From positions 62,001 through 126,000 of the forward strand of contig CALVEC010000003.1 of the NCBI GenBank assembly GCA_944326475.1: 64,000 bases of DNA. The letters are read 5' to 3'. Source of the stretch: Candidatus Gastranaerophilales bacterium (GTDB lineage Bacteria; Cyanobacteriota; Vampirovibrionia; Gastranaerophilales; Gastranaerophilaceae). The position numbers and the translations under genes are program-made. Shown piece by piece: positions 38,338 to 38,839 of the stretch (its first letter is position 1; every line of letters starts with the position of its first letter). Below the pieces are notes generated by a model that saw only the letters and a list, made by a program, of their open reading frames with translations, made no database searches and was not told the DNA's origin.

Positions 38338-38366
38338 TTGAAAAATTTTTTTTAGCAGATTATAAT
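38338..38366 (+). promoter_or_regulatory. Consensus-like promoter of the tRNA-Asp locus
   Basis: TTGAAA (38338-38343) and TATAAT (38361-38366) are separated by exactly 17 bases, one of the best promoter matches in the window. Transcription would start near 38373, about 355 bases before the tRNA, and would run through a short ORF and three tandem repeats. Tight tRNA promoters rarely have such long leaders. Confidence 0.8.
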
Positions 38367-38395
38367 CATTTTACATCAGGGACACCTTGGAGTGA

Positions 38396-38452
38396 ATGGC
38401 AGAAATAAGCCGGTTTGATTTTGAGGCTCTTGGATGTTTTAATAAAAATTGA
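38396..38452 (+). CDS. Possible 18-residue leader peptide
   Basis: The ATG at 38396 follows GGAGTGA and opens an 18-residue frame, MAEISRFDFEALGCFNKN, that stops at the edge of the repeat array. It has one Asp codon (GAT) and one Cys codon. The spacing from GGAG to ATG is short. It could be a leader peptide, but chance is a real alternative. Confidence 0.25.
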   Translation: MAEISRFDFEALGCFNKN

Positions 38453-38461
38453 ATATGGTGT

Positions 38462-38728
38462 GGGATCGTAGCCCCAGTGAGCGAGAGCGAACGTTCTTTA
38501 GATTAAGAACCAACTGAGCTACATTCCAAAGTGAAAATTGAATATGGTGTGGGATCGTAGCCCCAGTGAGCGAGAGCGAACGTTCTTTAGATTAAGAACC
38601 AACTGAGCTACATTCCAAAGTGAAAATTGAATATGGTGTGGGATCGTAGCCCCAGTGAGCGAGAGCGAACGTTCTTTAGATTAAGAACCAACTGAGCTAC
38701 ATTCCAAAGTGAAAATTGAATATGGTGT
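38462..38728 (+). repeat. Three perfect 89-bp tandem repeats made of tRNA pieces
   Basis: Units start at 38462, 38551 and 38640; the tRNA-Asp gene starts at 38729 in the same phase. All three copies are identical. Each begins with the first 11 bases of tRNA-Asp (GGGATCGTAGC). It then carries a hairpin (GTTCTT, TAGATT, AAGAAC) and AACCAACTGAGCTAC, the reverse complement of tRNA-Asp positions 7-21, and ends with the AT-rich tract that also precedes the tRNA. GTAGC/GCTAC and CAGT/ACTG can pair within a unit, making a long hairpin. The first unit is preceded by the same AAAATTGAATATGGTGT tract. There are no variable spacers, so it is not a CRISPR. Confidence 0.95.
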
Positions 38729-38805
38729 GGGATCGTAGCTCAGTTGGTTAGAGTGCCTGCCTGTCACGCAGGAGGTCGCGAGTTCGAGCCTCGTCGGTCC
38801 CGCCA
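38729..38805 (+). tRNA. tRNA-Asp (anticodon GTC)
   Basis: A complete cloverleaf can be drawn. The acceptor stem is GGGATCG/CGGTCCC with one wobble pair. The D-arm follows TAGCTCAGTTGG, and the anticodon stem CCTGC/GCAGG holds loop CTGTCAC, giving anticodon GTC. The T-arm is GTCGCGAGTTCGAGCCTCG-like, and CCA is encoded. It reads aspartate codons. The gene is followed by a terminator and preceded by the tandem repeat array. Confidence 0.97.
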
Positions 38806-38813
38806 TTTAAATC

Positions 38814-38839
38814 AAGAGCCTTTTCAGAGGCTCTTTTTT
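38814..38839 (+). terminator. Terminator after tRNA-Asp
   Basis: AAGAGCC (38814-38820), an 8-base loop and GGCTCTT (38829-38835) are followed by a T run. The 3' arm with its preceding A (AGGCTCTT) also occurs at 38424-38431 in the leader, where it could pair with the 5' arm. The 160 bases that follow, up to the next gene, hold short degenerate CGGCAAGGATA-type direct repeats near 38890-38955 and no gene that I can see. Confidence 0.88.

Follow-up and report, generated by a model that had tools for sequence, protein, structure and literature searches.

Why should a tRNA gene be preceded by repeated copies of its own beginning? The question is raised by an intact tRNA-Asp(gtc), which lies at 38729-38805 on the plus strand of the window (the whole stretch of 64,000 nucleotides analysed here), part of contig C3 in the metagenome-assembled genome (MAG) of a Candidatus Gastranaerophilales bacterium (2.14 Mb, 35 contigs). 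A tandem array made in part of tRNA-Asp pieces occupies the DNA upstream of the gene. Here, I document the anatomy and spread of this array, the covariation within its unit, and the transfer between genera of a module found on the 3' side of tRNA-Asp in related genomes. The preliminary description regarded the array as a one-off element of an undescribed form; instead, it belongs on the 5' side of a class which roughly half of the host tRNAs possess, and the 3' form of this class is the known rtT repeat of Escherichia coli.

The array, all parts of which are on the plus strand, consists of three 89-bp units and a fourth copy of the leader ahead of the tRNA (38445-38728); Tandem Repeats Finder returns a period of 89, 3.3 copies and a 100% match over 38445-38739, in agreement with the three perfect repeats reported earlier. 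Each unit begins with the 17-nt leader AAAATTGAATATGGTGT (at 38445, 38534 and 38623, and adjoining the tRNA at 38712-38728), proceeds with nucleotides 1-11 of the tRNA (GGGATCGTAGC), and continues with an insert containing AACCAACTGAGCTAC, a perfect 15-nt complement of tRNA-Asp nucleotides 7-21, i.e. of the D arm (38508-38522, repeated at 38597 and 38686). Leader and nucleotides 1-11 together form a direct repeat of 28 bp. The segments that comprise nucleotides 1-11, insert and antisense D arm are identical in the three units (38462-38527, 38551-38616 and 38640-38705); in the predicted fold, GGGAT.GTAGC pairs with GCTACATTCC and closes two inner hairpins (-19.2 kcal/mol), among them GC-GAGA-GC (38481-38488, repeated at 38570 and 38659). 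Both the origin of the unit in tRNA pieces and the arms of a long hairpin had been recognised previously, and both hold.

Upstream, the near-consensus promoter with a 17-bp spacer already noted is found as TTGAAA-17-TATAAT (38338-38366, plus strand), with 11 of 12 consensus positions, 362 bp 5' of tRNA-Asp, and the units do lie between promoter and tRNA; the same promoter precedes the first unit in other species, wherever the contig extends that far. Downstream, tRNA-Asp of the host genome has no 3'-side module and is followed by a terminator-like hairpin with a T run (38814-38835, plus strand). Leaders of the type TGAAAATTnAATA, similar to the Asp leader, stand directly before many host tRNAs, including those devoid of 5' modules; some tRNA leaders of the genome G013 carry GTCGAAAGAC in its place. 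A search of the array against Rfam yields only the tRNA above the gathering cut-off (RT-18 reaches 22 bits versus the 41.3 needed). A T-box was considered and dropped, the evidence on it being the negative Rfam result; cleavage of every unit by RNase P was likewise weighed as a possibility.

Is the arrangement at tRNA-Asp an isolated case? Own-end repeats were scored as exact copies, of at least 10 nt, of a tRNA's own 5' end upstream and/or of its own 3' end downstream; the data are from MAGs, and the score covers part of the tRNAs of each genome and counts exact repeats only. Such repeats flank 18 of the 37 tRNAs in the host (G000), 14 of 33 in G003 and 17 of 35 in G008, and further related genera have them at 14/27, 11/27 and 11/18 tRNAs (41-61%). 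When tRNA sequences were swapped, the rate per side fell to 3/1280, 1/1018 and 5/1150 in G000, G003 and G008 respectively (0.1-0.4%; host 0.2%), and ends on the wrong side were never found in these three genomes (0/105), 5' ends occurring upstream only and 3' ends downstream only. Three genomes taken as further controls are nearly clean, namely G009 (0/19), the order-level relative G026 (0/9) and G013 (2/39). In the host, arrays are located upstream of Asp, Met, Arg, Ala and other tRNAs, and downstream of Val, Lys, Pro, Tyr and others. Units at Leu-caa were aligned as well. Transfer-messenger RNA (tmRNA) and 5S rRNA likewise bear units on their 3' side. As separate observations, the tmRNA 3' end is followed by a module with the shared core hairpin at the end of host contig C2 and at the start of C27 (loci L091 and L103), and partial 5S rRNA copies stand in tandem behind 23S-5S genes at the end of host contig C16 (about 940-1700 of locus L096), where two different core hairpins are inserted in loops.

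The modules share an order of parts which, read outward from the tRNA, is the same on both sides: first the leader or trailer, next what remains of the D or T arm or its antisense, then the hairpin insert, and last the tRNA end. The inserts are located in D-loop or T-loop copies, and at tRNAs other than Asp they fall into several kinds that are not related. What had been called a foreign segment in the Asp unit is an insert that folds and stands in place of the D arm, much like the hairpin inserts found elsewhere. Many inserts have a common core hairpin, TGAC-TAAAT-GTCA or GAT-TAAGT-ATC, which lies in plus orientation upstream of 39 genes and in minus orientation upstream of 2, versus 8 plus and 10 minus downstream; for the TGACTAAATGTCA form only, the counts are 22 plus and 2 minus upstream, and 1 plus and 7 minus downstream. 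The eight genes with a plus hairpin downstream are all Thr or Cys genes; behind most of these stands a neighbouring tRNA which, on my reading, has an upstream module of its own. The mirror orientation on the two sides points to a process at the level of DNA, and not to a part that acts via the transcript. Separately, an intergenic foldback element with CCCCACCCTACCCCTCCCCAAG ends is repeated, with the core hairpin nested inside (loci L089, L090, L093, L094, L097 and L098). A strict inverted-repeat pattern was given up as a search handle, being too narrow: the host genome was its sole match in the phylum.

A neutral process might generate the same order of parts. In snap-back template switching, replication entering the tRNA gene would copy its own new strand and restart in the leader, giving in one step a sense end, a loop, an antisense arm, the leader and a full tRNA, with later correction keeping the arms complementary. 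Such switching predicts the part order on both sides and would explain why the antisense matches the host's own tRNA; it leaves unexplained the shared, oriented core hairpins, the near-identical modules across genera (see below) and the near absence of modules from related genera, and I regard it as improbable.

Evidence of movement comes from the 3' side. A 229-bp module at tRNA-Asp, ending with the last 19 nt of the tRNA, is 99-100% identical among one genome of genus g1, several of g6 and one of g108, while the sequences flanking it on the far side are not alike. At other loci, matches between g1 and g6 DNA are mostly 76-87% identical over their longest stretches, a difference of about 20%; the near-identity of the module against this background argues that modules move between genera, and by this comparison of sequences the modules, at least those of the 3' side, are mobile. 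In two species (G329 and G225) two different modules stand in succession, and the inner body of the 3' module also stands alone between genes and in two IMG/VR contigs. The 3' module has no match among 50,697 phage records; a 15-mer scan of viral sequences gave 30 matches.

The repeats could also be attachment-site (att) remnants of islands inserted by tyrosine integrases. The 3' identity blocks do span the T-loop to the 3' end of the tRNA, as att sites do, and the arm AATCCAAGAC recurs ahead of fragments at Asp, Ile and Leu. The units, however, are gene-less and at 80-230 bp too short to contain an integrase, the 5'-side class is as common as the 3' class, and tmRNA, 5S and many different tRNAs are involved, all of which makes this origin very doubtful.

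The Asp unit itself is found, by the search in related genomes that had been suggested earlier, at the same tRNA in the three other species of the host genus (i.e. in all four members). Two additional genera have it there too, and one more gives a match that is weaker and divergent, so that chance does not account for the unit; copy number, also a point raised before, differs between the species of the genus, from one to three or more. A covariance model of the unit matches 21 of 288 genomes of the family, with strong matches in g1, g6 and g117; among the weak ones, the divergent match just mentioned lies at tRNA-Asp in a g116 genome, and three that lie away from tRNA-Asp are probably due to chance. 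Since independent assemblies of other species place the unit at the same site with sequence differences, an assembly artefact, which the MAG source and several contig ends at tRNAs or arrays might have suggested, is refuted as to the existence of the array and scarcely credible overall; the copy number in the host MAG is less certain than that existence, and two contigs of G002 stop inside the same array.

Among 20 distinct Asp units, 92.9% of the cells are paired and 7 pairs are changed on both sides, in an alignment fitted to the structure (which favours structure) and with related rows; none of 500 shuffles reached the observed values for pairing and double changes, and slid controls gave 30-43%. 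The GNRA loop is retained as GAGA, GAAA or GGAA in nearly all rows, its stem being swapped to C-G once, and the antisense arm tracks the tRNA of its host, GTTGG going with CCAAC and GTTTGG with CCAAAC. In g6 the median identity of the unit is 0.88, against 0.56 for the preceding DNA and 0.68 for the leader. The fold of the Asp unit is therefore constrained, and, as compensatory changes maintain it, a structured leader RNA is possible.

The main rival to an origin as a module is a conserved cis-acting leader RNA which would control folding or RNase P processing of pre-tRNA-Asp, e.g. by pairing of the antisense arm with the tRNA 5' half, or which would be a source of small RNAs of about 89 nt. 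Besides covariation, loop, local conservation, matching antisense arm and presence in three or more genera, it can call on predicted ensemble energies: with one unit upstream, -67.6 kcal/mol compared with -50.5 when the cloverleaf is enforced, the values for leader and tRNA alone being -33.8 and -28.9 (predictions which leave out modifications, proteins and kinetics). By this prediction, were the unit not folded first, the 5' half of the tRNA could be caught by the antisense arm. The earlier description had suggested a regulator or decoy, which would likewise be a putative role. On the other hand, two sister species of g6 (G169 and G385) keep the promoter and tRNA-Asp layout intact without the unit, which is also missing from most of the family; the 3'-side modules sit past the terminator and yet show mirror-image anatomy; and the inserts at other tRNAs are of unrelated kinds. 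A functional leader RNA as the whole explanation is thus possible, though on the unlikely side.

My favoured reading, to which I would give an even chance, is that the Asp array is a 5'-side, rtT-like tRNA-end module of mobile or selfish origin which has by now become a segment of the leader with a constrained fold. On the 5' side a foldback (hairpin) element would have entered the D arm, and on the 3' side the T arm, of a stable-RNA gene copy, the tRNA end outside the insertion point being duplicated such that an intact tRNA was left inside; direct repeats, like the 28 bp of the Asp array, would then allow gains and losses of copies through recombination or slippage. If the units are transcribed, the Asp unit would today be a folded segment of the pre-tRNA leader, and, because its fold is constrained, it probably influences the maturation of tRNA-Asp, at least passively. 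Several points weigh against this origin. The Asp 5' unit looks inherited in place, its movement never having been caught; covariation and the kept GNRA loop could signal an RNA function instead of a selfish fold; and, for antisense arms to fit the tRNA variant of their own host, there must be selection, regeneration time and again, or correction by template switching. Nor was a mobilising enzyme found when Y1 transposase and reverse transcriptase were searched: the former has 0 matches in the four genomes of the genus, and the latter does not track the motif, G003 and G008 having no match and motif-free genera having one, so that both were rejected as partners for want of correlation with the modules.

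How do the modules relate to known systems? In the tyrTV operon of E. coli K-12, the last 19 nt of tRNA-Tyr occur in six copies, the later ones spaced 178 bp, and a T-arm copy bears a hairpin-rich insert; these rtT/RttR repeats resemble the present ones in that tandem units repeat the tRNA's own end, as they do in the Asp array and throughout the class, and in that an arm copy carries a hairpin insert. They are confined to one operon and to the 3' side, whereas here about half of the tRNAs are affected, on both sides, plus tmRNA and 5S. Units that stand 3' of a tRNA and contain its 3' end are encountered at other host tRNAs; the Asp array is 5' of its tRNA and is therefore a variant of the rtT-type repeats, not a member. 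To my knowledge, rtT has so far been a curiosity confined to a single E. coli operon, and in open-access texts (subscription papers were mostly outside the search) I found no mention of a 5' form or a genome-wide class, and no description in this lineage. Repetitive extragenic palindromic (REP) elements, including bacterial interspersed mosaic elements (BIMEs) and REPINs with the Y1 transposase RAYT, are likewise short, palindromic, numerous and partly nested, but no Y1 transposase was found in the host genus, and the modules here are tied to the ends of stable RNAs. Rickettsia palindromic elements are palindromic inserts which enter genes, RNA genes included; I know of no report of duplicated tRNA ends or arrays among them. 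Integrative elements at tRNA genes also restore the 3' end of the tRNA, of which a direct repeat stays behind, while the present modules are gene-less, measure 60-240 bp, use 5' ends as well, and stack. Finally, as in integron cassette arrays, different folded modules may be stacked behind one anchor (G329 and G225), here a tRNA end.

A broader proposal, tentative and somewhat short of even odds, is that the modules may be mobile DNA of a new class. They would be foldback cassettes devoid of genes, each taking up one end, 5' or 3', of a tRNA, tmRNA or 5S gene, inserting at that end with the intact gene rebuilt, and stacking into arrays; E. coli rtT would be an isolated relative.

Other features of the window, all beyond the array, include two adjacent GmrSD_N (DUF262) proteins on the minus strand (40590-42860 and 43061-44803), possibly a type IV restriction pair, an 853-aa protein (34121-36682, minus strand) with a weak match to the calpain family (Peptidase_C2), and 60-bp repeats at 40198-40404 which encode a YDKYGRK repeat protein.

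To sum up, in several genera about one tRNA gene in two bears the rtT design or its mirror image on the 5' side. In practical terms, short-read assemblies of these genomes break at tRNA flanks, and the flanks contain pieces of tRNA that may be overlooked or misinterpreted in tRNA surveys. As a 3' module has moved between genera, the origin and the effect of such repeats become testable.
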